From Candidatus Zhuqueibacterota bacterium (lineage in GTDB: Bacteria > Zhuqueibacterota > QNDG01 > JABMRT01), in contig JABMRT010000227.1 of NCBI GenBank assembly GCA_013202295.1, positions 1 through 54,528 on the forward strand: a stretch of 54,528 nucleotides of DNA, written 5' to 3'. Below, one piece after another: positions 8,121 to 53,548 of this stretch. The notes beneath the pieces are model-generated. The model did not search any database. It was not told the DNA's origin and saw only the letters and a program-made list of their open reading frames with translations. Made by a program: the position numbers and the translations under genes. How positions within the stretch are numbered: position 1 is the stretch's first letter; each line of letters starts with the position of its first letter.

Positions 8121-8819
8121 ATGGATATCCCTATGGAATTTCGTCGAACCACATTAGATACTTGCCATGAAGCAGACGGTACTATAGTCGTTATTGATGT
8201 CCTTCGTGCATTCACAGCAGCAGCCTATGCGTTTGACAGGGGTGCGAAGGAGATTTTTCTTGTCTCCACAGTTGAAGAAGCATTCATGTTTCGAGAGGAC
8301 CATCCCGATTATCTCCTGATGGGTGAGGTTGATGGTTTGCCGATCCCTGGATTTGATCTGCCAAATTCTCCGTCAGCTCTCCTGAACCTTGATTTAACAT
8401 CCAAACGCTTGATTCAGAGAACGACTGCGGGTACGCAAGGTGTGGTTCGTGCAAAGAAGGCAGACCGTCTTTATGCGGCCAGCTTTAACGTTGCATCGGC
8501 CACGGTCAATCAAATCAAGATGCTTAATCCAGATGTTGTTACATTTGTTGAAACCGGTATCAGAGCGGACGGTGGAGGTGGTGAGGAGGATGTCGCATGC
8601 GCAGATTATATTGAGAGTTTACTGCTCGATATTCCGCCAAATCAAGTGGATATTGAGAATCGAGTGCGGCACGCCCAATGGACAGCACGGTTTGCAGATC
8701 CTGGACAGCCGGATTTTCCGGAAGCCGATCTGGAGTGCGCGCTCAGGATTGATCAGTTTGACTTTACTATGGAAGTTGAAAGACAGGATGATTTGTTAGT
8801 GCTTAGGGCAGTTAAATAA
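8121..8819 (+). CDS. comB: ComB-like 2-phosphosulfolactate phosphatase
   Basis: 232 residues, typical of the ComB family. Family signatures include VVIDVLRAFTAAAYAFDRGA near the N-terminus, LLMGEVDGLPIPGFDLPNSP and RTTAGTQGVVRA, followed by a Gly-rich EDVACADYIESLL segment. ComB removes phosphate from 2-phosphosulfolactate on the route to sulfolactate and coenzyme M; bacterial homologues are widespread and may serve sulfonate metabolism or act on other phosphoesters. The start may be ATG 8121 or ATG 8133; neither has a strong ribosome binding site. No other sulfolactate genes are nearby, so the exact role is open. A terminator follows at 8847. Confidence 0.82.
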   Translation: MDIPMEFRRTTLDTCHEADGTIVVIDVLRAFTAAAYAFDRGAKEIFLVSTVEEAFMFREDHPDYLLMGEVDGLPIPGFDLPNSPSALLNLDLTSKRLIQRTTAGTQGVVRAKKADRLYAASFNVASATVNQIKMLNPDVVTFVETGIRADGGGGEEDVACADYIESLLLDIPPNQVDIENRVRHAQWTARFADPGQPDFPEADLECALRIDQFDFTMEVERQDDLLVLRAVK

Positions 8820-26715: not shown

Positions 26716-26842
26716 TTTTTCATATTTGTCCAATACAATTTGTTTATCTAGACACGGGTCTTTTATTGTATTCCATTGCTTGGTGTTTGAACGAAGGCGC
26801 ACTTGTTGAGGACAATATCCACAGAATCTGACAAAATTTTAC

Positions 26843-26871
26843 TTGAGATTTTGGGTGAATCATGTTATGTT
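26843..26871 (+). promoter_or_regulatory. promoter of four-module lipoprotein gene
   Basis: TTGAGA (26843-26848), 17 bp, TATGTT (26866-26871). The hexamers are identical to those at 17809-17837 and the spacers share ATTT and TGAATCAT, suggesting a common factor or a common origin. Confidence 0.62.
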
Positions 26872-26922
26872 GTACTCACGTGTAAACCTAAAAGAATCAA
26901 AATAAAACAGGTCAGGTATATC

Positions 26923-28437
26923 ATGAAAACAAAAATCATCATCCCAATATTTATACTACTCGTTGCATTCTTGAGCTGTTCGAAGGATAATGGGGTTGAG
27001 CCTGAGTCCATTAAGAGCGCGATCAAGGGTGAAATTACACTTACGGGTGAGTGGCCAGTCACACCAGAAGATGTGCGCATTGTAGCTGCCAAGAAATTCC
27101 CGCTTACCTCCATTGATGATCTGGATTTTGGAGAATCCATCCCCGATGGTGTGGATACCTATTCCTACACCTATTATCTCAAGCATGGCGAATATCAAAT
27201 GGTGGGTGTGGCCTGGCGTGAACAGGGTGGTAGTTGGGCATTAACCAGCGTATGCGGTCTCTATTTTGTGGATGGCGATTCTCTGAATCCCGGAGGGGTC
27301 ATCATACCCACGGAGACTTCGATTGTTGAGGGGATTGACATGGCTGTGGACCGATCCAAGGCGCGGCGGACGAGTACATCCGAGGTCACGGGAACCGCCA
27401 CATTCTACGGCGCATGGCCGGATTCATTTACAAGCGCGATTGTGATGGCATCCATTAAAGATCCCCTGTCTGAATCTTTCTCTATTCTGGATTTAAGCTA
27501 CAGCGCACCAATTACAAGTGGAACCGAAACTTTTGAATATGCGGTAGGGGTGGCGCCCGGTTTGTACAAGTCGCAGGGTGTGATCTTCTTAAAAGAGAAT
27601 GAGCCCATTACATTGGATGATATATACTATACACAAAATATTGGCGGGCTTGTCATTCAGGATTTGGATATTGGAAATGGTGAAATAGTGGAAGGCCCGG
27701 ATTTTGATTTGCAATTGAGTCCGATCACAAGCGCGATTACGGGCACAATCCAATTCAGCGGTGAATGGCCGGAAACGGCTGAGGAAATTCGTATAGTCGC
27801 ATCGACTGCTTTTCCTCCCTCATTAGAAGAGATGATTGTGGGTGAGGAGCTTCCTGCGGATGTGGAGTTGTATAATTACCGATTTGATCTCAGGCCCGAC
27901 ACATACAAGATTGTGGGTGTGGTCTGGCGGGCGGCAGGCACTCAATTTGATCTGTTGAGTGTGTGCGGTGTGTACTTCGCGGGCACGGATACACTGGCTC
28001 CAAGCGAGGTGGTGATTCCGAATGACACCTCTTTGATACAGGATATTAATATTCGCGTGAACAGATCGAAGGCGCGTGTGATCACAGATTCGCGCATCAC
28101 AGGATCCATTACATTTGATGGGGACTGGCCCACGGATATCACAGACATGCGTTTGATTGCCACGACCCGTTTCTCACTCTTCCCGCTTGAGCTGCCGTCT
28201 TTGTTTGACCTCAGCTTTAGCGAAACCATGCCGGTGGGTGTGGAATCGATCGATTATGTGATCAAGGCGTTTCCGGCGACCTATGTGGCCACAGGTGTGA
28301 TTTTCTTCCGTGAGGGACAAACCCTGTCGATTAATGATATTCTTTATTCGGCTGAGGTTAACGGATTGGCAATAGAAGATTATACTGTGGAAAGGGATTC
28401 AACGGTGATTGGTCCGAATTTCGAGATCGAATTCTAG
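26923..28437 (+). CDS. lipoprotein of four alternating beta-modules (A-B-A-B)
   Basis: 504 residues from the ATG at 26923; earlier in-frame ATGs overlap the promoter. Lipobox FLSC (Cys at about 19). Two module types alternate. Type A (about 30-150 and 268-390) has GEITLTGEWPVTPEDVRIVA / GTIQFSGEWPETAEEIRIVA, GVAWRE or GVVWRA, SVCGLYF / SVCGVYF, and ends RSKARxxxxSxxTG. Type B (about 150-268 and 390-504) has GTATFYGAWPD / GSITFDGDWPT, GVIFLKENEPITLDDIYYT / GVIFFREGQTLSINDILYS, and ends EGPDFDLQ / IGPNFEIE. Each module probably forms a transthyretin- or Ig-like sandwich. I do not recognise a named family. No enzyme motif; likely a surface structural or binding lipoprotein. Confidence 0.75.
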   Translation: MKTKIIIPIFILLVAFLSCSKDNGVEPESIKSAIKGEITLTGEWPVTPEDVRIVAAKKFPLTSIDDLDFGESIPDGVDTYSYTYYLKHGEYQMVGVAWREQGGSWALTSVCGLYFVDGDSLNPGGVIIPTETSIVEGIDMAVDRSKARRTSTSEVTGTATFYGAWPDSFTSAIVMASIKDPLSESFSILDLSYSAPITSGTETFEYAVGVAPGLYKSQGVIFLKENEPITLDDIYYTQNIGGLVIQDLDIGNGEIVEGPDFDLQLSPITSAITGTIQFSGEWPETAEEIRIVASTAFPPSLEEMIVGEELPADVELYNYRFDLRPDTYKIVGVVWRAAGTQFDLLSVCGVYFAGTDTLAPSEVVIPNDTSLIQDINIRVNRSKARVITDSRITGSITFDGDWPTDITDMRLIATTRFSLFPLELPSLFDLSFSETMPVGVESIDYVIKAFPATYVATGVIFFREGQTLSINDILYSAEVNGLAIEDYTVERDSTVIGPNFEIEF

Positions 28438-28528: not shown

Positions 28529-30682
28529 CTATTTCAGCAGAATCATTTTTCGAATGTCTGTGAAGGCGGAGGTTTGCAGTTTGTAGAAGTACAATCCGGC
28601 GGATAGAGAGGTGCCATCCACATTCACTAAATGCGAACCTTTGGATTTGAACTCATCTAAAAGAATGGTGACGCGCTGTCCTTTAATATTATAAAGAGAC
28701 AGGTTGACCTGTTCATCCTTGGGTATCGAGAATTTAATCCGGGTGGATGCATTGAATGGATTGGGATAGTTCTGATTTAACGACCACGTTTCAGGTTGGA
28801 CTTCATGATCCGGCACAGCATTCGAGATTTCCATCAGCGATACATTGTCCACAAATACATTCCCATCTGTGGCGCCACAATTAAATACCAGGGTGGTGTT
28901 TAAATCCATGGGATCCATCATTTCGAAATCATATGTGAAATGCTGTATGAATGGCCGCAAGAATGACGGGCTAATTTGACCATAATTTGTATTGGGGGGA
29001 TTCTCATTAATGAGGATTGCCTCCACGGTTCGATCTGCATCAGCATATGCGTCAAATTCAAAACGATATTGTTTCCCCAGAACGAGTCCCACGCTTGTCT
29101 GCCTCAGTTGAACATTGGACATCAAATCGCTACCCTCTGAGATTTGAATGCGATACTGTCCTTGATTGTCGATGGTGCCCCATGCGATCGCAGAGCCGGG
29201 TTGAAGCAGGGTCCAATTCTGGTCGCCCTGCGAAAAATCCCCATTCAGAATAATATTCTCACCCGGCTGGAGAAACCGTGTTTCCACCCGCACTTCATTC
29301 GATCCGCTGCTTTCAATGCCCACAGGGTCCACCGCAGTGACCGTGAAATACCAGGCCTCGCTATTATCCAGTCCGGTTAGATAAAGGTGCGTTTCGTCGG
29401 TTTCGGCAAGCAATGTGGTTGGGCTGGATATCGTGTCACCGTAGACACGGTAAACATCCACATCAGGATCGCCGAACTTGTTGAAGATGAGCACGACACC
29501 CGCACTCTGCGGTTCGGCCATAAGGTAGGGCGCCTCCATCATGCCCTCCCACTCATATCTGCGGATGCGATTGCTTGAAATCTCCAGATCCATCTCAAAC
29601 AGCACATCACCCTCCGGATTTACTTCGCAGGCGAATGAGGGTGGCCAGTCTGCCCAGTTGATAAAGGTGTTGCCGTTCGGCAGGCGCTGGGCATTACCCA
29701 TCATACCGGATTGAATATCCGGATCATATCGAAACTCCCACACCTTTTCAGCAGTCATGGCAACAGTATCCAGCTGATACTCTACAGCCCGAGCAAATGA
29801 GGGACTCCGGTGGTTGCCATTGTCAAAGACCGTGTAATGGTTGGGGTGTCCTTCAACAGGTCGGGCATGATGCTGATAGGAGATTTCATACGGATCGTTT
29901 ATAAAATCGAACTGATTGTGTCTTCCGCCCAGTCGCCAGATGATCTCTCCAGTGTCATGATTGATCTTCGTGACTTCATCCAAATGGCGGCTTGAGATGA
30001 TAATATGGTCATCGAAATCCACGGCAATGGAATTCATATGCACATAATCGATATTGCTGCTATGAAGATTTTCATGCACAGCATCCGAGATGTCGAAGTG
30101 ATCCCAGCTTTGCCACTCGAAAACCACGTTTCCATATGCATCCTGTTCCTGCACGTGATTGCCAAGTACTGTGGCACTCGGGTGGCCTCCTGTGACAATC
30201 TGACTCATGTCCACCGTTTGCGGATCCAGACAAATAAAGAATCTGTGACCATTCGGAGTGATGAGCAATTCGTGTGCGTCTGTGAGATAATTGCTGCTGC
30301 ATTGCAAGGTGTCGATCTGGTTGTAGTGCTGGTCAAACACAATGTAATATCTCTGCTGATAGAAAAAGGCGATGAGAAGATTACCTGGCTGCACCCGGAA
30401 TTCGCCGCTTCCATTGCTATGGCTGGGGAATCGGCGATAAAATGCCGGCGTGCCGTCGTTTTCAAGAATCACAAGATAATTGCCAAGATCCCCAAAAGTT
30501 GATCCGAAAAAGATTTTTCCGGGAGCGGTTTCACCGTACTGGAATGTCTGAATGTCAGGGAAATCGCTTGGTACAGTTACACCATTGATTGTTCGGATTT
30601 GTCCGGATTGTGATCCACTGATGAAAATAAAGAATGAAAGGAGAAGAAATAAAATCGAGTGTCTGGTCACATTATCCAACAC
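28529..30682 (-). CDS. T9SS-exported aryl-sulfotransferase-like propeller, paralogue A
   Basis: 717 residues; last gene of the 26-kb array, starting 3 bp after paralogue B's stop (GTG start; GTG 30670 is an alternative), so translationally coupled. Signal peptide 1-26, ASST propeller 33-390, fibronectin III-like 390-470, a galactose-binding-like domain (NGDFSQGDQNW, 480-620), T9SS tail 634-717. In the Arylsulfotransferase families, His/Asn/Arg residues line the propeller channel and one His takes up sulfate. Here DAHELL (135-140), HMNSI (215-219), QHHAR (270-274) and MGNAQR (328-333) recur at about 55-80 residue steps, one per blade. SSRHLDEV (230-237) and RLGGRHNQFDFINDP are also present. 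No N-terminal Ig-like domain. Confidence 0.85.
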   Translation of the reverse strand: MLDNVTRHSILFLLLSFFIFISGSQSGQIRTINGVTVPSDFPDIQTFQYGETAPGKIFFGSTFGDLGNYLVILENDGTPAFYRRFPSHSNGSGEFRVQPGNLLIAFFYQQRYYIVFDQHYNQIDTLQCSSNYLTDAHELLITPNGHRFFICLDPQTVDMSQIVTGGHPSATVLGNHVQEQDAYGNVVFEWQSWDHFDISDAVHENLHSSNIDYVHMNSIAVDFDDHIIISSRHLDEVTKINHDTGEIIWRLGGRHNQFDFINDPYEISYQHHARPVEGHPNHYTVFDNGNHRSPSFARAVEYQLDTVAMTAEKVWEFRYDPDIQSGMMGNAQRLPNGNTFINWADWPPSFACEVNPEGDVLFEMDLEISSNRIRRYEWEGMMEAPYLMAEPQSAGVVLIFNKFGDPDVDVYRVYGDTISSPTTLLAETDETHLYLTGLDNSEAWYFTVTAVDPVGIESSGSNEVRVETRFLQPGENIILNGDFSQGDQNWTLLQPGSAIAWGTIDNQGQYRIQISEGSDLMSNVQLRQTSVGLVLGKQYRFEFDAYADADRTVEAILINENPPNTNYGQISPSFLRPFIQHFTYDFEMMDPMDLNTTLVFNCGATDGNVFVDNVSLMEISNAVPDHEVQPETWSLNQNYPNPFNASTRIKFSIPKDEQVNLSLYNIKGQRVTILLDEFKSKGSHLVNVDGTSLSAGLYFYKLQTSAFTDIRKMILLK

Positions 30683-33221: not shown

Positions 33222-34304
33222 CTATTTTAAAAATGTATCATAAATGGGCGCGTAGTCTTTACGAATTTTATCTTCGTCGAGCCCGAATTTGGCCAAATCA
33301 TAAGCGTGCTTGCTTTTAAACTGACGTTGTTTTTCGGCAGTTTCCTCGATCGCTTTAATCAGGTCGGGTGTCGGCTCCACCTCAACAAAAGTCAGGATCT
33401 CGTTCGCCAACTTGTCAAAGTCCTGCATGATGCGGGGGAACGGCACGATCAATACGTTCTCTTTCGGGATGCGCCCCTGGGTATAATCCTCATAAAAGCG
33501 CATGCTCAGTTCGAGAAAAGCATCGTATAGTCGGTTGATGTAATGCTGACGCTTTGCTTCTGACAGGCTCCAGAAACCGAATCGGCCATCCAGCACACCG
33601 GTAACTAGACTGAGACCGGAAGGTACGGTCTGGAGCGGATCACGCACCATGTAGAGGATTTTCGCGTCTGGGAATTTTTGCAGAAAACGGGGTACCCGGA
33701 TTCCCAAAGAAAAGAGTTTGGAGGTGACGCGGCTCCGCTTTTCACCGATCAGGTTTCGCCTCCACATTTTTTCGAGCCAGGCGAAATCCCTGTCCGCGGT
33801 ATCCCGCACATCGGGATCAAACATCGACCGCAAATCATCCTTGGCCCATGCCAGGAAAAATCCATATAAAAAGAAGCCGTCAAAATACCTGAACATGAGG
33901 GAGGGATCATCGGTTTCGATTCCAGTTAGACTGGTTTGATGCGCCGCTGCAGCGTGATGTCGGGCCGGGCTGAATTTTTCCATCAATGGCAAAAGGGGTT
34001 TGATCAGGGCTTGCAGGGTAAGAGAAGGATATATCATTTTCCAGATGCGCATGCCGGCACCGAAATGGTTATCCACAAGGAAACGCTGTAGAAAGGTGGT
34101 GCCGCTGCGAGGATTGCCGACCACAATAATGGGTTTTACGATTTTAACTTTCCTCAATGAAGGGAAAAATAGATGATCCAGGGCCATGCCCAATGAGACA
34201 ATGCAATGTAATGTAAAGAGTCCAATGCCGGTGAAAACCGGACTGATCCATTTGTGAAATGTACTTCCGATAACGTGATGGACAAGGAGCATTCGTTTCA
34301 GCAT
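33222..34304 (-). CDS. PAPS-dependent sulfotransferase family protein
   Basis: 360 residues; ribosome binding site GAGGCGA. The 5'-phosphosulfate loop is VVGNPRSGTTFLQ (61-73), and the 3'-phosphate site is seen in ILYMVRDPLQTVPSG (216-230, Arg221 and Ser229). This places it in the sulfotransferase superfamily (PF13469-like), which moves sulfate from PAPS to a hydroxyl. The first 50 residues contain one hydrophobic stretch (about 20-45), so the enzyme may sit at the inner membrane and modify a lipid-linked or amphipathic acceptor. It lies among ASST-like genes and directly downstream of the KAS III-like gene, on the same strand. Confidence 0.88.
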   Translation of the reverse strand: MLKRMLLVHHVIGSTFHKWISPVFTGIGLFTLHCIVSLGMALDHLFFPSLRKVKIVKPIIVVGNPRSGTTFLQRFLVDNHFGAGMRIWKMIYPSLTLQALIKPLLPLMEKFSPARHHAAAAHQTSLTGIETDDPSLMFRYFDGFFLYGFFLAWAKDDLRSMFDPDVRDTADRDFAWLEKMWRRNLIGEKRSRVTSKLFSLGIRVPRFLQKFPDAKILYMVRDPLQTVPSGLSLVTGVLDGRFGFWSLSEAKRQHYINRLYDAFLELSMRFYEDYTQGRIPKENVLIVPFPRIMQDFDKLANEILTFVEVEPTPDLIKAIEETAEKQRQFKSKHAYDLAKFGLDEDKIRKDYAPIYDTFLK

Positions 34305-34353
34305 GTTCGCCTCGTTTAATATTTATCTAAACTTTAAAAGGTACTAAAGGGGG

Positions 34354-34443
34354 TGTCATGCTGAGTCTCGCTGAATGCAAGATGAAGTATCTTTGGTGGA
34401 GCGGATAAGATTCTTCTCCTGCCTTGGCTGGATCAGAATGACA
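34354..34443. repeat. palindromic REP/MITE-like element
   Basis: TGTCATGCTGA (34354-34364) and TCAGAATGACA (34433-34443) are inverted ends with one mismatch. An inner pair, GAAGTATCTT and AAGATTCTTC, also forms a stem with one mismatch. The 90-bp unit fills most of the gap between the sulfotransferase and KAS III-like genes. Short palindromes with this TGTCAT...ATGACA border are a common dispersed type in several bacterial groups. No other copy was found in this window. Confidence 0.6.
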
Positions 34444-34453
34444 GAATTATATG

Positions 34454-35419
34454 TTACCAGCGAATCAGCGCGAAAGAGACAGAGAGGCCCGCGCCGGTTC
34501 CGCCCATGAGAATCAGGTCGCCGCGTTTTAGTTTGCCTTCCGCATTGGCGGTTGCCAATGCAATGGGCATGGATGCAGCAATACAGTTGCCATACTTGGC
34601 GATGTTGTTGATGACCTTTTCACGCGCAAAACCATGATAGACAAAGGCCTCAATTGCGGGACCGGACGCCTGATGAAGAACGAGCCAGTCAATGTCATCT
34701 TTGGAGATATTGTTTTTCGTGAAAATAATTTTCAGTGCTTCTTTGACCCGATTAACGGCCAGACGAAAAACTCGCGGGCCGCTCATATTAAAGAGGTTGT
34801 CCTCAGGTTTAGTGTCCGGGTCGCCCGGTGGACGCCGTGTGCCCGCACCCCGAAATTCGGTGAAGTCCGCGCCTTCGGGCCAGGTAGACATGTGCCAATC
34901 CAGAATTGCACTTTGTTCTGACTCCGGTGTAGCCTCAAGGATCGCAGCCGCAGCGCCATCCCCGAAAAGGGCCGCACTTTCAGGCTGCTTCATGTTGCGA
35001 AATCCTGATCCGGTCTCGGATGAAACAACCAGAACCCGATTTACCAGTCCGCTTTGAATCATGGATGCGCCGGTAATGGTCGCTTGGATAAAAGAAAGAC
35101 AGGTCGCATGTGTGGACCAGGCTGGTGTGCCGACAAGTCCAAGTTCCTTTTGAATAAAAACCGAACTGTCCGGAATCAACTGAAGCGGCGTGGTAGAGGC
35201 GTTTAAAATGAGGTCCGGCGGAGGCCCCTCACCCATTGCTTCACGTGCCGCTTTGGCAGCCAGTACTTCCATGGGTTCTTCAGCGATACGGCGCTCTATG
35301 ACACCAGTTCGTGAGATAATCCATTTTTCACTTCGCCCAATCAGCGGTGACAATTCCGCTGCGGTTTGCACCTTGGGTGGCATGTACAAACCAGTGGAAA
35401 CAATTTTACAATTAAGCAT
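34454..35419 (-). CDS. beta-ketoacyl-ACP synthase III-like enzyme
   Basis: 321 residues from the ATG at 35419 (AAGGAAGG upstream); an earlier in-frame start at 35458 is disfavoured because the binding site lies inside it. The thiolase-fold catalytic set is complete: Cys107 in HATCLSF, His249 in LVLHQASG and Asn278 in YGNCIAASMP. GDGAAAAIL and the closing GGTGAGLSVSFALIRW are typical of KAS III. The Cys surroundings differ from housekeeping FabH (usually ACAGF), which fits a specialised condensing or acyl-transferring member, as used in starting unusual lipid or polyketide chains. Placed between ASST paralogue C and the sulfotransferase. Confidence 0.86.
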   Translation of the reverse strand: MLNCKIVSTGLYMPPKVQTAAELSPLIGRSEKWIISRTGVIERRIAEEPMEVLAAKAAREAMGEGPPPDLILNASTTPLQLIPDSSVFIQKELGLVGTPAWSTHATCLSFIQATITGASMIQSGLVNRVLVVSSETGSGFRNMKQPESAALFGDGAAAAILEATPESEQSAILDWHMSTWPEGADFTEFRGAGTRRPPGDPDTKPEDNLFNMSGPRVFRLAVNRVKEALKIIFTKNNISKDDIDWLVLHQASGPAIEAFVYHGFAREKVINNIAKYGNCIAASMPIALATANAEGKLKRGDLILMGGTGAGLSVSFALIRW

Positions 35420-35461: not shown

Positions 35462-38353
35462 TTACTTTGTGAGAACGAGCTTCCGGGTCAGAACATTTTC
35501 CCCTGATCTCAGACGGTAAAAATACACACCAGTGGGCAAGTCCCTGGCATCCAGATGCACGGTGTAACGGCTCGGGGATTGTATCCCATCCACCAAAGTT
35601 TTTACTTCATGGCCCATGATATCATACAGTTTCAATGAGACATGGGTCCGGGCCGGAATCGAGTAAGAGATCTGAGTTTTCGCATTGAAAGGATTTGGAT
35701 AATTCTGAACCAGCGCGAAATCCAACTCTTTCAGTGCAGGATCTTCAGGCACGTCGGAGTAATCCACAATAGAGAAGGATTGATCACTCAAATCGGAGAG
35801 TGCTTCATCCGCTGCACTCTTGATCAAGACCTTGTATCCGGATCCAATTTCCGAACTAATCGGGATTTCCCAAGCATATCCACCCGTGCTCCGTGTCGTA
35901 CCAATGGATCTTACAAAAGTATCGTTTCGGTATAATTCAAGGGTGACTTCGTCGGCGATATTGTCATCCCATTCAATGAATTGTTCAACGCCCAACTGCC
36001 AGGTTTCACCGCCATTGGGTACTGTCAGTGTTACAAACGGTGTGACGGTCGAGAATGTTCCGGTGGCAGTCCAATCGCTGGTGCCTACATCATTCGTGGC
36101 ATTGACGCGCCAGTGATAGGTTGTGTTGGGAGCCGGATCATTCATCTCATACACGGAGCTCTTCAAATAATTGGCATCCTCTACAATATTAGAAAAGGCA
36201 GCGTCGGTCGCAACCTGCAGGTAGAACCAGGTAACAATGCCAACAGGTGTCCAGATAAGATCTACTGACTGGGTCTGATCGACCTGCTCGCTGCTGGCTG
36301 GACTGATCAGAAGGGGTGGGGAAGTCATTGAAGCCACGTCTCCATAAGTGAAAATAAATTCACCGAATTTGGTCATGGTGGCTTTCACCTGACGTGTGAC
36401 ATGGTTCCACTCCGTTGGCAGTTGTATAAATAATCCTCTATCCGGGAATTCACGATGATAAACAATCACTGAATCTGGGTGTTCAAATCCATAAAAATCT
36501 GCGTCAAATGAGATCTCCGCCGTCAGAGGAGTTTGAATATTCATCTGGTCGACAATGATTTTAACTGGCAGTACACGGCGTGTTTTTCCGGGGAATTGCG
36601 GCTCATGGGGGCCGTGCTCCCATCGCCAGACATAGGCTTCATTGTATCCAAATCCGCCCATGGAGTTGAATTTCAGGGTGACACCGGTTTCATCATCTAC
36701 ATCATTGAAGTCATAAGTGTTGCCTACGAGCAGTTCGCTGCGCATCACATACGCCGCGTGCTTGCCGCGATCCCAATCAAAACGGAACGCCCGATAGCTC
36801 GCCCGGAATAAACGATCAAACGTCAGTTCACTGATGACAGTGCCTGCCGCATCCACTTCGGTCATCGCTGGTGATCCGAACATAGACGCTGCGCCCCAAC
36901 CGATCACCGTGTTGCCGTTTTCAAGCCGCTGCACACTGCCCATGTTTCCAACCAAAATGTCCGGATCATGACGATACTCCCACACATTGGTTACGGTCAT
37001 GGCCGTTTCATCGACGTCATACTCCAGCGCACGTGTATATGCTCGAATTGGTAGATCACCCGCGCCCTCATCATTGTTGCCATTGTCGAGCATGGTCAGG
37101 TTGCCGTTGTCCAACTGGCGCACGTCGTGTTGATACATGAAAAAAATTGGCGCGGTATCCTGTGTTTCATTGATAAACGTGAACTCATTGTTTTTGCCCG
37201 CCATACGCCAGATGATCTCGCCGGTTTGCCGGTTGATCTTTGTAATCTCTGCAAGAGCCACAGCAGAGACAATCAGATTTCCGTCATTGGCCAACTCAAT
37301 CGAATTGAGATGGATGGCATTGACGGTGGCCTGTGTCAGATTCTGATACGAATCGGTTAAGTCGTAATGATCCCAGCTTCTCCATTGAAAGATCACATCC
37401 TTGTTTTCATCTACTTCCTGCACGATTGAGCCCGCTACCAGCGCACCCGGATGGCCACCGGTTACGACTTCGCTCATATCTACGGGTTGCAAGTCATAGG
37501 TCAGCATCAGGGCATGGCCATTGGGCAGCAGTTGAAATTCATGGAAGTCGGCAGTGTATCCATTTCCCATCTGAAAATTATCCATCACAGTATAAGTGCT
37601 ATCCATTAAGAAATAATCCGTGAGGCCGGCGGCAACGCCAAACGGGGAGGGCTCATCCATGATCCCATATGTTAGCCAGCCATTGGGAGCAACTTTCAGA
37701 TCGACCGGCATGCCTGAATCAAAAAATTCAGAATGGATCACGTTCCCGTCATTGTCCGCGATCAGGTTGTACCCTTCCAGCACGGCCACGGGTGTGGGAG
37801 TGAGAAAGAGATATCCCGGACTGGGATCGCCATAGTGGATTAGCTCGAAACCATAATCGTCCGGAAGCGGATCATCTAAAGCATAGGTTTGAGCTTCTAT
37901 GGAAATTTCTTCCGGTACGTTCATCGGATTGAGTGTTGCGATGTGTTCATACGGATTCAATGGTTTTTCCAATGGTGTCACTGTAAAAGAGAATGTGAAG
38001 GACTGAACTGTTTCACCGGATCGCGTGAGCAATCCATTGCCAAGTGTCACGGTTACTTCTTCTCCAGGGCTGAACTGGTTATCGGATTTAAAGATCAGTG
38101 TTTTTCCATCCGAAGAAAGTATTGCCTGACCCGAGACTTTGCCGCTCTGAGATCCTTGCACTTCGATGAGATTATCACCAAAGGCAGAAACTGGATCAAG
38201 TACTTCTCCAGGCCGAATAATAATCTGGGAGGATCGCGAATTCAAACTGGATTCATGCACCGGTGAAATGTACTGAATTGAAGCTGGTTTCTGCGCCATC
38301 AATGTGACAGATCCGATTGCAATAATGAGTGTTCCGAGAAATAGACGTTTCAT
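35462..38353 (-). CDS. T9SS-exported aryl-sulfotransferase-like propeller, paralogue C (divergent)
   Basis: 963 residues from the ATG at 38353 (GAAGGA upstream); the upstream ATG at 38404 gives a charged pre-leader. Signal 1-21, Ig-like domain 25-135, propeller about 165-560 with DFHEFQ, IHLNSI, QHDVR and MGSVQR retained. SSRHLDEV has become SAVALAEI and RLGG has become RMAG. A 10-residue insertion precedes YQHDVR. Instead of the galactose-binding-like domain it carries a spacer, a fibronectin III domain (PPLLISPASSEQVDQTQSV) and a Kre9-like Ig domain (LTVPNGGETWQLGVEQFIEW). T9SS tail VQNYPNPFNAKTQ. The most divergent paralogue, so possibly a different substrate or non-catalytic. Confidence 0.84.
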   Translation of the reverse strand: MKRLFLGTLIIAIGSVTLMAQKPASIQYISPVHESSLNSRSSQIIIRPGEVLDPVSAFGDNLIEVQGSQSGKVSGQAILSSDGKTLIFKSDNQFSPGEEVTVTLGNGLLTRSGETVQSFTFSFTVTPLEKPLNPYEHIATLNPMNVPEEISIEAQTYALDDPLPDDYGFELIHYGDPSPGYLFLTPTPVAVLEGYNLIADNDGNVIHSEFFDSGMPVDLKVAPNGWLTYGIMDEPSPFGVAAGLTDYFLMDSTYTVMDNFQMGNGYTADFHEFQLLPNGHALMLTYDLQPVDMSEVVTGGHPGALVAGSIVQEVDENKDVIFQWRSWDHYDLTDSYQNLTQATVNAIHLNSIELANDGNLIVSAVALAEITKINRQTGEIIWRMAGKNNEFTFINETQDTAPIFFMYQHDVRQLDNGNLTMLDNGNNDEGAGDLPIRAYTRALEYDVDETAMTVTNVWEYRHDPDILVGNMGSVQRLENGNTVIGWGAASMFGSPAMTEVDAAGTVISELTFDRLFRASYRAFRFDWDRGKHAAYVMRSELLVGNTYDFNDVDDETGVTLKFNSMGGFGYNEAYVWRWEHGPHEPQFPGKTRRVLPVKIIVDQMNIQTPLTAEISFDADFYGFEHPDSVIVYHREFPDRGLFIQLPTEWNHVTRQVKATMTKFGEFIFTYGDVASMTSPPLLISPASSEQVDQTQSVDLIWTPVGIVTWFYLQVATDAAFSNIVEDANYLKSSVYEMNDPAPNTTYHWRVNATNDVGTSDWTATGTFSTVTPFVTLTVPNGGETWQLGVEQFIEWDDNIADEVTLELYRNDTFVRSIGTTRSTGGYAWEIPISSEIGSGYKVLIKSAADEALSDLSDQSFSIVDYSDVPEDPALKELDFALVQNYPNPFNAKTQISYSIPARTHVSLKLYDIMGHEVKTLVDGIQSPSRYTVHLDARDLPTGVYFYRLRSGENVLTRKLVLTK

Positions 38354-38423
38354 AACAGATTCCTTCGTTTTATATCCATTCAAGTGGAAATAATCTAAAA
38401 CCATTTGCTTTTAATTCAAAGCA

Positions 38424-49471: not shown

Positions 49472-52400
49472 TTATTTTAATACGATCATTTTTCTGATGA
49501 TCAATATATTGTTCTTAGACGGATTGGAGATACTTTCCATCCGATAGAAATAGAGTCCTGATCCGAGAAGAGAGGCATCGAAGTGGGTCTGATAGTTGCC
49601 CGGACTGGATTGTCCATTCACGAGATCGTAAACACATTCACCACGCACATTGTAAACCGCAAGCCGGATATGACTTGTTTCCGGCACCGCATAATGGATG
49701 GTGGTGGATGCATTGAACGGATTTGGATAATTCTGAGACAGTGCGAACTTTTCAGGGATTTGACTGCCATTTCCGTCCACTTCTGAAGGATAGAATGTGA
49801 TGATATACTCATCCCGGATTTTTGTATTCTCTCCCCCCGGACTGGAAACTGTTAAACTTACTGAAAAGGTGTCTACTACCTGATAGGTATAGGATGGATT
49901 CTGCTCTGTACTGGATTGACCATCCCCGAACTCCCAACTCCAAGAACTGATTGTTCCTGTAGATTGATCTGTAAACTGAACCTCAAACGGGATTGTGCCT
50001 TCGGTGGTGTCCGCAGTGAAATCTGCCACGGGCGGCGGTTCCAATACGGTGATGTACGCTTCCTTTGTTAGTCCGCCAGATCCTCCCGGTCCGACTGCAG
50101 TCAGGCTTACTGTGAAAGTGTCCGCTGTTTGATAAACATGCGATGGATTTGGTTCCGTACTGGTGGTGCTGTCCCCGAAATCCCAATGCCAGGAGGTGAT
50201 GACACCGGTCGATAAATCTGAGAATTGTACATCCAGCGGACGCAATCCAGCGGTGGTGTCCGCAGTGAATTCCGCTACAGGCGGAGGATCTGTCACGATT
50301 ATATAATCCGGACGGACGAGTGTGTCCGCTCCGCTCTGGCCCAAGACAATGAGCCGGACTGTGAATGTATCTACAGTCACATAGCTATGAACCGGGTGTT
50401 GAATGCTGCTGGTCTGGCCATCTCCAAAATTCCATGTCCAGGAATCCACCAATCCAATGGATTCATCGGTAAACCGAACATCAAATGGAACTGCTCCCTG
50501 TGTGGTATCCGCAGTAAACCCGGCAGTGGGCACAAGACCAGAGGTGACGATGTAGTCCAGACGCGTGAGCACATCCACCCCCCCCGGTCCGATTGCTGTC
50601 AAAGCGACTGTAAATGAATCGATCGTGCTGTACGTGTTTGAAGGATTCTGTTCAATGCTGGTATTTCCATCTCCAAAATCCCATAACCAAACGAAGATTG
50701 GCCCGGTTGACAGATCAGAGAACTGCACGTTCAGAGGATAAAGTCCCCGTGTGGTGTCCGCGGTGAAATTCGCTGTTGGCGGAGGTTCTGAAACCTTGAT
50801 ATAATTTTCCCGCATCAGTGTATCCGCTCCACCCGGCCCTGTGGCAATGAGAGTGACATTAAGCGTGTCCGCGTCTTGATAGGTATGGGAAGGATTCTGT
50901 TCCGTGCTGGTTGATCCATCCCCGAAATCCCAGAGCCATGTGGAAACAGGCCCGTTGGAAAGATCAGAAAAGCTCACGTCAAAGGGCCATTGCCCCTGCG
51001 TGGTGTCCGCCGTGAAATCCGCAACAGGCGGGGGATCCGAGATCCGGATGTAGTTTTCACGGGTCATCGTGTCCTCCCCTCCGGGACCGGTGACCGTGAG
51101 CGAGACGTTAAAAGTGTCCGCTGTCTGGTAGGTATGGGAGGGATGCTGCTCCGCTGAGGTCTCTCCATCCCCGAAGTCCCAAGACCAGGAGGTGATTAAA
51201 CCGGTCGAAAGATCCTGGTAATGCACTTCGTGAGGACGGACTCCGACCGTATCCGCGGTTTCAAAGTCCGCTTGAGGGATCGAATCCTCAACCACCTGTT
51301 TCAGCGACACGTTGTCGATAAAAACATCAAAGGGAGAGGCACCCGCATTCAGGGAGATCCGGGCGTAGGATTCATCCGGCTTTGTCATGAGGAACTGAAA
51401 GGTATAATGCGTCGGCTGGGGCGTGAGCCAGACCGGACCGATCTGGCTGAAGTTGGTGTAGGGGTCCAAAGCTTTTCGCACCTCGGATTCAAACAGACGT
51501 CCCTGTGAGGCCCATGCATCATATTCCAGCTGATATGTTTCACCCTGAAGAAGACGGATGTATGGCTGTCTTAAGGCCACATGCCAGTTTAAACTGCCTC
51601 CATTGTCGATCATATAGTGGAACACCCCCTCAGGCGTGATTTCCCTGTCCGCTCTGGCCGCGTCATCCACGTACCATTCCCAGAAATAGAATTCTTCCGA
51701 GAAATCCCCGTTGATGACCATGTTCTCTCCTGGTTGAATGATCCTGTGAAAGACAGTGACCTCGTTGGAGTAACCGCTGACGGCTCCGCTGTTTGAAACG
51801 GCTCTGACCCGGAAATGATATTCACCACTCTCAGTCAGCTCATTTTTTAAATGGGCAAATGGTTCTGTTGTGGTAGCCATTAAATGAGTTGGATAGGGAT
51901 TTAAACTGCCAAAAACCTGATAGTGAGATATATCTGTATCACCAAATTTATTAAAAATGAGAGTGATATAGTTTAATCTGGGTTCAGCTACAAGGTATGG
52001 TGTTAAAGCCACACCCTGCCAATCATACTTAAATACGCGATAACAAGAGTACCAACGGCGAAAATTTAGCTCAAAAGCCTTGGTCCCAGATGGAGTGACT
52101 TCAGTAATCTTCGGGTGTTCGGCGCTGGCCCAGTTAATGAGTGTGTTCCCATTCGGAAGACGCTGCACATTGCCCATGGCCCACGAAAATCTATCAGGCA
52201 AATCCCGGAATTGCCAAACCAATGTGGCTGTCATGGCAGACGCATCGATCGCGTATTCCACAGCCCGTGAGATTTGTGGAGAACGGTTGTTGCCATTGTC
52301 AAAGAGCGTATACCGACCCGCTCCCAGTGACCGTATATCATGCTGGGCTTTAAATCCATTCAAAGGATCATTTAAAAAAGTGAATTGATTGTTTTTGCCA

Positions 52401-53548
52401 CCCAGACGCCAGATTATATCACCGGTATACCGGTTTATTTTTGTTATTTCATTCAGACGTCGACTTGACAGTAATATGTGCCCGTCCGTATCGATGTCAA
52501 TCGCATTCATATGCGGAAAACTAATAAAATGATCGGTTAGGGGATGTTCGCTATCCGAATCCAGGATATCAAAGTGATCCCATCCACGCCATTCCAGGAG
52601 CAATTCATGCGAAGCACTCAATTCTTGAAATATCGTTTCCTCTACCCGGGCATCTGTTTGTCCTCCGGTCACATATTTGCTCATATCGACTGTTGTTACC
52701 CTGTGGCCAATTATGAAAAAATGTCCATCTGGTTGAACATCCAATTCATGATGATCGGTAACATAGCCATCTGCTCCATTCACGCTATATTGACCCACCA
52801 CACGATAATTGCCATCCAACGCAAGATAGGATCCAAAATTCCTGCAAAAGGTCAACAATCCATTCGGTTGATGATTCAAGTGGAAACAAGCAGTACTTGG
52901 TTTTAAATACCATAACGGCGCACCGGAGTTGTCTAATATCATGACATAATATTCCCACTCGCGCACGCAGATGAAAATATTCCCGTCATAGGGATTATTG
53001 TTGGTGGTAATGTTCACAAACGGCCAGTCGGATGGCACGGAGATCCCGTTCAGCACGACCGGATTCTGGAACGCGCCGCTTCGAGACGGTTCAAGGGGAG
53101 CCGGACTTCCTCTTTCCTCTTGTGTTTCATCCGGTGCTGCCTGAGTGGAGATGACTATGGATTCTTGTGAAATCGTGGAGAAGGAATAGGATGTATCATA
53201 AAGCACACCAGGACTTTCTTCCAGGATTGGTCGAATTCGAGCGTGAATGGATTGATCGGCTTTATAGGGAGAGTCAGGATAGAAGAGAATGGTTTTTCCA
53301 TCCGAAGCAATATGTGTTCTGCCTGAAAGCGGTCTCCCGGAATCGGTTTGTACTGTAATCATTGAAGTAATATTCTTGATTTGAGCCGGATTGATATCCC
53401 AGAAACGCACAATGATGGGTGTGTCAAGACGATGTCTTTCTGATCCCGGGATTGGATGAAGGTATTGAATTTCTGATCCCAAACCATCGATCCAGACTAG
53501 ACAGGTCATCCAAAAGATCAGAATTTTTATTCTGTTAAATCTGCGCAT
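49472..53548 (-). CDS. T9SS-exported aryl-sulfotransferase-like propeller with six PKD repeats, paralogue G
   Basis: 1358 residues, 9 bp after the partial gene H. Same parts as F: signal 1-25, Ig-like domain, propeller (about 180-560) with DHHELD, HMNAI, SSRRLNEI, QHDIR and MGNVQR, fibronectin-like and galactose-binding-like domains (NGDFSEEFYFWEW), six PKD domains (about 759-1249), T9SS tail (SQNYPNPFNASTT). The propeller reads like paralogues D/E (FPHMNAID, NDPLNGFKAQHDIRSLG, GVALTPYLVAEP) whereas the tail reads like F/H, so it looks like a mosaic gene. The conserved His in SSRHL is Arg here. Confidence 0.88.
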   Translation of the reverse strand: MRRFNRIKILIFWMTCLVWIDGLGSEIQYLHPIPGSERHRLDTPIIVRFWDINPAQIKNITSMITVQTDSGRPLSGRTHIASDGKTILFYPDSPYKADQSIHARIRPILEESPGVLYDTSYSFSTISQESIVISTQAAPDETQEERGSPAPLEPSRSGAFQNPVVLNGISVPSDWPFVNITTNNNPYDGNIFICVREWEYYVMILDNSGAPLWYLKPSTACFHLNHQPNGLLTFCRNFGSYLALDGNYRVVGQYSVNGADGYVTDHHELDVQPDGHFFIIGHRVTTVDMSKYVTGGQTDARVEETIFQELSASHELLLEWRGWDHFDILDSDSEHPLTDHFISFPHMNAIDIDTDGHILLSSRRLNEITKINRYTGDIIWRLGGKNNQFTFLNDPLNGFKAQHDIRSLGAGRYTLFDNGNNRSPQISRAVEYAIDASAMTATLVWQFRDLPDRFSWAMGNVQRLPNGNTLINWASAEHPKITEVTPSGTKAFELNFRRWYSCYRVFKYDWQGVALTPYLVAEPRLNYITLIFNKFGDTDISHYQVFGSLNPYPTHLMATTTEPFAHLKNELTESGEYHFRVRAVSNSGAVSGYSNEVTVFHRIIQPGENMVINGDFSEEFYFWEWYVDDAARADREITPEGVFHYMIDNGGSLNWHVALRQPYIRLLQGETYQLEYDAWASQGRLFESEVRKALDPYTNFSQIGPVWLTPQPTHYTFQFLMTKPDESYARISLNAGASPFDVFIDNVSLKQVVEDSIPQADFETADTVGVRPHEVHYQDLSTGLITSWSWDFGDGETSAEQHPSHTYQTADTFNVSLTVTGPGGEDTMTRENYIRISDPPPVADFTADTTQGQWPFDVSFSDLSNGPVSTWLWDFGDGSTSTEQNPSHTYQDADTLNVTLIATGPGGADTLMRENYIKVSEPPPTANFTADTTRGLYPLNVQFSDLSTGPIFVWLWDFGDGNTSIEQNPSNTYSTIDSFTVALTAIGPGGVDVLTRLDYIVTSGLVPTAGFTADTTQGAVPFDVRFTDESIGLVDSWTWNFGDGQTSSIQHPVHSYVTVDTFTVRLIVLGQSGADTLVRPDYIIVTDPPPVAEFTADTTAGLRPLDVQFSDLSTGVITSWHWDFGDSTTSTEPNPSHVYQTADTFTVSLTAVGPGGSGGLTKEAYITVLEPPPVADFTADTTEGTIPFEVQFTDQSTGTISSWSWEFGDGQSSTEQNPSYTYQVVDTFSVSLTVSSPGGENTKIRDEYIITFYPSEVDGNGSQIPEKFALSQNYPNPFNASTTIHYAVPETSHIRLAVYNVRGECVYDLVNGQSSPGNYQTHFDASLLGSGLYFYRMESISNPSKNNILIIRKMIVLK

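Follow-up and report, generated by a model that had tools for sequence, protein, structure and literature searches.

Little is understood of what bacterial ASTs do for the cell, and the substrates that they use in nature are unidentified, according to the sections of a 2026 review considered here (PMC13426309), which present Cpz4 as the one with an established role. In the caprazamycin pathway, as described in parts of two publications (PMC4257720, PMC6731281), the PAPS-dependent Cpz8 sulfates triketide pyrones, and the sulfate esters so made are then the donors for the ASST Cpz4, which prefers a sugar hydroxyl as judged from the same sections of the review (PMC13426309). The ketosynthase MxnB is stated to form an alpha-pyrone in vitro in the portion of PMC5724707 used here.

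We have analysed a window of 54,528 nt, which is the whole of one contig in a 5.15-Mb assembly. A run of co-directed genes on the minus strand spans from the contig end (54526) to position 28529; inside it, a KAS III gene and a PAPS-type sulfotransferase (ST) gene form a pair among seven ASST-like genes, all of which have the catalytic histidines (Table 1). The initial annotation had pointed to a PAPS sulfotransferase next to a KAS III: both genes are real and their Pfam families were confirmed. MxnB-type ketosynthases are not known outside antibiotic pathways. We lean modestly towards the interpretation that the KAS III and the ST make up the inner part of a two-step sulfation relay which feeds the exported ASSTs.

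Table 1. Features of the window around the KAS III and sulfotransferase genes.
Feature	Positions	Strand	Description and evidence
Lipoprotein-like gene	26803..28437	+	No Pfam match; related genes next to the pair in G047 and next to KAS in G090; tblastn in L080, L117
ASST-like, 717 aa	28529..30682	-	CBM_4_9, T9SS tail; Pfam/NCBIfam, alignment
ASST-like, 812 aa	30686..33124	-	CBM_4_9, T9SS tail; Pfam/NCBIfam, alignment
PAPS-type sulfotransferase (ST), PF13469	33222..34304	-	360 aa; N-terminal helix 21-46; Pfam, motifs, model
Interspersed repeat between KAS and ST	34340..34440	.	The genome has 3 further, diverged copies (73-79 percent)
KAS III	34454..35419	-	Probably MxnB/CorB-type, 321 aa; C107/H249/N278; Pfam, solved relatives, tree, residues, model
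ASST-like, 980 aa	35462..38404	-	Directly upstream of KAS; Big_5 + ASST + T9SS tail; without Arg374 equivalent; Pfam/NCBIfam, alignment
ASST-like, 748 aa	38424..40670	-	T9SS tail; Pfam/NCBIfam, alignment
ASST-like, 869 aa	40721..43330	-	CBM_4_9, T9SS tail; Pfam/NCBIfam, alignment
ASST-like, 1361 aa	45375..49460	-	Repeated domains; catalytic histidines in alignment A2
ASST-like, 1358 aa	49472..53548	-	Repeated domains; PF05935 match at 52061-52984

The KAS III reading frame opens with the ATG at 35419 and ends with the stop at 34454; the alternative start at the TTG of 35458 is less probable. The protein is a KAS III rather than a type III PKS: it matches ACP_syn_III (1.6e-18) and ACP_syn_III_C (5.9e-26), and its Chal_sti_synt_N match (21 bits) stays below the cut-off of 27. 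The closest solved relatives are MxnB (4v2p, 1.4e-54) and CorB (4yuc, 3.3e-47), followed by the best FabH (4e-46). The score of 243 bits against the FabH model NF006829, barely below the cut-off of 249, could suggest that the gene is simply the housekeeping FabH (the second NCBIfam FabH model gives 227 bits against a cut-off of 292). The same genome, however, has a separate FabH (C79:33762-34730) that clears both cut-offs widely (437 bits versus 249 for NF006829), and the tree sets the window KAS outside the FabH clade; these two results refute the housekeeping identity, to which we attach practically no probability.

In this tree of 77 rows, where other KAS III families are sparsely sampled and long branches were flagged by the program, 28 KAS of the window type form one clade (support 99/99), which groups with MxnB, CorB and one further row (99/100), apart from the 36 FabH rows (99/100). 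The initial annotation had described the KAS III as non-standard, with a full Cys-His-Asn set and an atypical neighbourhood of the Cys, and all of this is borne out: the gene is neither placed in the FabH clade nor the sole fabH candidate of its genome, and none of the 28 clade members departs from C107, H249 and N278. The Cys is embedded in T-C-L-S-F, which is the same in MxnB and CorB apart from S for T, unlike the [AQ]-C-x-G-F of nearly all of 39 FabH rows. More than 10 residues conserved in the clade are common to MxnB and CorB and almost never found in the 39 FabH rows; the diagnostic positions that side with MxnB/CorB include Q80, D84, L108, S109, S133, A157, S252 and C279. We conclude that the window KAS III is probably of the MxnB/CorB type, i.e., a predicted pyrone-forming or head-to-head condensing ketosynthase.

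The structural model (pLDDT 94.3) has its nearest fold in MxnB (Z 44.8, rmsd 1.6, 320 residues aligned), and FabH comes next with a Z of 43.0, too close for the fold alone to discriminate between the two. An insertion before the M-x-G motif, which seemed typical of MxnB-like KAS, was dropped as a marker, since the source genome's own FabH has it too.

The residue that replaces the catalytic Glu found in PpyS and OleA bears on what the KAS III would make. It is Ile in 25 and Leu in three of the 28 clade members (Ile82 in the window) and Val in MxnB, which rules out a PpyS/OleA-type enzyme, where the Glu is provided by the other subunit. Together with the many residues common to MxnB and CorB only, this argues against the relay starting from a product other than an alpha-pyrone (a resorcinol, a ketone, a beta-keto acid or a transferred acyl ester). 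Such a product, which we consider rather unlikely, would nevertheless be compatible with a kinship to MxnB of only about 33 percent identity, with the different, more OleA-like KAS that stands beside the ST at locus L046 instead of an MxnB-type one, and with genome G111, where a second KAS-ST-ASST set lies beside a P450 and an AMP-binding/carrier protein. The substrates of MxnB are two long polyketide chains, which we have counted against a pyrone relay, and no PKS modules were seen adjoining the window KAS.

The ST reading frame runs from the ATG at 34304 to the stop at 33222 on the minus strand, and its product matches Sulfotransfer_3 (7e-16) and Sulfotransfer_1 (2.6e-8). Among 39 full-length members of the family, 58 columns are invariant, including P65-R66-x-G68-T69-T70 and R221-D222-P223...P228-S229; the PRxGTT and RDPxxxxPS stretches are presumably the expected PAPS-binding motifs for the 5'-phosphosulfate and the 3'-phosphate. 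The hydrophobic N-terminal stretch remarked upon in the initial annotation was recovered, with a Kyte-Doolittle mean of 1.79 across the 19 residues that start at residue 23; in the structural model (pLDDT 91.3), it folds as a single helix (residues 21-46). Hydrophobicity of at least 1.6 at the N-terminus is found in 37 of the 39 full-length members. The nearest solved folds retrieved with Foldseek are mycobacterial Stf9 and Stf1.

The pairing of the two genes is conserved well beyond the source genome. The ST occurs in four of 82 genomes of the home phylum, with the KAS adjoining it in all four; G061 and G047 (candidate division KSB1) belong to that same phylum. Identities to the window proteins range within the phylum from 66 to 69 percent for the ST and from 58 to 63 percent for the KAS. 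A scan of an 84,980-species genome collection with the ST alignment yielded 40 loci, the other three home genomes included, which span KSB1, Ignavibacteria, Bacteroidetes, Marinimicrobia, Deltaproteobacteria/Myxococcota, Gammaproteobacteria and others; they are not independent, since Marinimicrobia that have the same gene order account for about a dozen of them. Several loci lie at contig ends, and the genome records are mostly MAGs. A KAS of the same clade lies near the ST in 22 of these 40 loci, directly adjoining in 14 and two genes off in eight (one of which is cut by a contig end). Recurring thus at loci found by the ST alone, the KAS-ST pairing is far beyond chance.

Counted by genome, a KAS with at least 45 percent identity is present in 21 of the 36 other ST genomes, or 25 of 40 when the four home genomes are added. 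The remaining 15 genomes have no KAS of the window clade, save for a copy cut by a contig end in G102. Over the 22 loci, KAS and ST distances are correlated (Mantel r 0.84, p 0.0001), which fits the two genes travelling as a unit. At nine ST loci, neither KAS nor ASST was found in the fetched stretch (L049, L051, L055, L067, L070, L073, L074, L076 and L078), and no replacement ring-former appeared among the subset of their neighbours that was scanned.

The two genes are separated by 149 bp in the window versus 13 bp in L048 and 34 bp in L043. The interspersed repeat listed in Table 1 would explain this wide gap, in which we looked for an inverted repeat and found none.

Some loci have other recurrent neighbours. 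A repeated lipoprotein-like family lacking a Pfam match is found beside the KAS or the ST (26803-28437 in the window; L041:6541-8337; L117:5618-6448), and a metalloenzyme/iPGM-like protein is encoded beside the ST in three loci (L044:11120-12691; L051:11094-12746; L055:5903-7576), with Pfam matches for two. Two conserved genes of about 200 and 475 aa follow the ST in 12 mostly Marinimicrobia loci (L056, L058-L063, L066, L071, L072, L079 and L082); the L058 pair has no Pfam match. About 25 kb off the pair, the window has a 2-phosphosulfolactate phosphatase-like gene (8121-8819; PF04029, 7e-40), a possible organosulfur link.

The exported ASST-like neighbours that the initial annotation had noted are real. 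Five of five window ASSTs scanned match PF05935/PF14269 and carry a Por_Secre_tail, and PF05935 was found in a sixth by a separate search. With this C-terminal sorting domain, and with the SprA translocon of type IX secretion present in the source genome, they qualify as predicted type IX cargo. All 20 aligned ASSTs keep His288, His365 and His426 (numbering of the 35462-38404 protein), which align with EcAST His252, His356 and His436, and the equivalent of Asn358 is nearly invariant; the roles of the EcAST residues are taken from the sections of the review considered here (PMC13426309). The ASSTs, as seen in these alignments, thus look catalytic. In genome G000, they are greatly expanded and arranged in tandem arrays, with at least 20 PF05935 matches (e.g., C53, C58 and C218).

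One position sets the ASSTs next to the pair apart. Of the 20 aligned sequences, 12 have the Arg374 equivalent, as do six of the seven window copies; it is absent from every aligned ASST adjacent to the KAS or the ST, i.e., the one in the window (35462-38404) and those of L043 (1096-3972), L045 (11117-14017), L080 (6016-8901), L048 (6415-8955) and L054 (6417-8957). Paralogues of the same type as the 35462-38404 protein adjoin the pair in G007, G047 and G061. A special role for these Arg374-less ASSTs is possible.

The nearest solved ASST structures to those of the window are 9kf4/9kf6 (3.6e-67), far ahead of EcAST (3ELQ, 1.2e-25). Their accession numbers adjoin 9kf2, which is titled Cpz8; from this numbering, 9kf4/9kf6 are probably Cpz4. 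EcAST is named as the sole solved AST in the sections of the review at hand (PMC13426309).

An ASST is present within the fetched stretch at 25 of the 40 ST loci, while 0.90 would be expected from the number of ASSTs per genome. PF05935 is matched in 33 of the 36 other ST genomes. Within the home phylum, the four genomes with the pair have at least 20, at least 20, 15 and 3 matches, and the other 78 have between one and four (20 genomes) or none (58 genomes); the association is significant (Fisher 0.006, Mann-Whitney 2e-5), and the three genomes richest in ASSTs all have KAS-ST. This co-localisation speaks against a pathway that ends at the sulfated lipid, as a sulfolipid for the membrane or for signalling, with the ASSTs using other donors. 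Some mycobacterial Stf enzymes make sulfolipid end products, and the ST model is closest to Stf9 and Stf1; moreover, three genomes with a KAS beside the ST (G093, G105 and G113) have no PF05935 match. ASSTs are also common without the pair: in one class of 294 genomes, they occur in 138, including 136 of the 292 that lack the ST. Mostly found without the pair, ASSTs can have other donors; with the ST in only two of these 294 genomes, a co-occurrence test in that class has almost no power. On balance, we judge the end-product explanation unlikely.

Sulfate activation genes are part of the same neighbourhoods. An APS kinase gene lies near the ST in nine of the 40 loci, against an expected 0.18 with one copy per genome and 0.36 with two, and directly follows the ST in L048, L050 and L054. 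Pfam scans of loci brought up APS kinase, ATP sulfurylase, CysD-like and CysN-C-like neighbours. A Polyangiaceae genome with the ST on a different contig has one KAS beside an APS kinase gene (L119). Somewhere in the genome, an APS kinase is present in all four home genomes with the pair and in 49 of the 82 home-phylum genomes overall. Exporter genes are near the pair in some relatives, either MMPL with DUF1302 and (where scanned) a LolA-like protein, or an ABC exporter.

That the KAS and the ST make an acceptor or an unrelated metabolite, with the ASSTs as mere neighbours in a surface-modification island, appears very improbable to us. Separate tandem arrays of ASSTs do occur in the genome and other exported proteins are encoded within the window, yet the ASST-KAS-ST kernel recurs in distant phyla with different flanks, in some cases together with sulfate activation genes. 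At the genomic level, the link to exported ASSTs suggested in the initial annotation is thus sustained by neighbourhoods conserved in several phyla, some of which include genes for APS kinase and ATP sulfurylase, and by the caprazamycin precedent from the literature.

The best reading of the window set, from our comparative analysis, is that it would work like the caprazamycin two-step relay, with a KAS III and type IX-exported ASSTs. We hypothesise that the ASSTs use its intermediate, which would be a sulfated lipid or pyrone. First, the KAS III, judging from its kinship, would condense a pair of acyl thioesters (probably beta-ketoacyl ones); the lipophilic product would be an enol or resemble a phenol and would most likely be a 4-hydroxy-alpha-pyrone. 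The membrane-associated ST would then sulfate the acidic hydroxyl with PAPS to yield an activated aryl-type sulfate ester; consistent with this PAPS-dependent step, other genomes have genes for APS kinase and ATP sulfurylase next to the pair. Outward transfer of the sulfated lipid would follow, possibly by exporters of the MMPL or ABC type such as those encoded near the pair in some relatives. Finally, the exported ASSTs, for which the conserved residues described above give partial evidence, would take the sulfuryl group from the sulfated lipid by a ping-pong mechanism and pass it on to an acceptor, perhaps a surface glycan; the CBM_4_9 domains of three window ASSTs and the preference of Cpz4 for a sugar hydroxyl make a glycan plausible.

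PAPS is made in the cytoplasm, so that a lipid carrier would allow sulfation outside the cell. A more general proposal, to which we give somewhat less than even chances, is that of a lipid-linked sulfate carrier in several phyla: a hydroxy-pyrone-like lipid handle made by an MxnB-type KAS III would be charged from PAPS at the inner membrane, exported and used as the donor for batteries of exported ASSTs, whose targets would be surface glycans or other molecules out of reach of PAPS. The KAS-ST-ASST set is a concrete candidate for an endogenous donor pathway of ASSTs. If the relay exists, it would explain the origin of the sulfate used by exported ASSTs, provide bacteria with a route for using PAPS-derived sulfate outside the cytoplasm and give MxnB-type ketosynthases a new job. 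A literature search, conducted mostly outside subscription journals, returned no title on a KAS III or on T9SS ASSTs in a sulfation relay.

Each component has a described counterpart from which it differs. Mycobacterial Stf1 and Stf9, the nearest folds to the ST, share only 17-18 percent identity with it, and the window ST family adds a conserved, membrane-like N-terminal helix. E. coli CFT073 AssT (EcAST, 3ELQ) has the equivalents of His252, His356, Asn358 and His436 in common with the window ASSTs, whereas the latter have T9SS tails and CBMs, and the KAS-adjacent paralogue is without Arg374. MxnB and CorB, from the myxopyronin and corallopyronin pathways, resemble the window KAS in the Cys-His-Asn set, in C-L-S-F and N-C-I and in having no Glu base, but the window KAS stands with a sulfotransferase. 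In the caprazamycin system, whose ASST is PAPS-independent, the ring-former is a type III PKS, whereas the candidate of the window is an MxnB-type KAS III; for this reason, the KAS-ST-ASST set is not a member of the caprazamycin relay. Furthermore, the window ST is not close to Cpz8 (Foldseek rank 48), and the window ASSTs are found in arrays with T9SS tails and no antibiotic cluster. What the window has in common with the caprazamycin/liposidomycin systems, at the level of the genes, is the clustering of a PAPS-ST and an ASST with a candidate ring-forming synthase.
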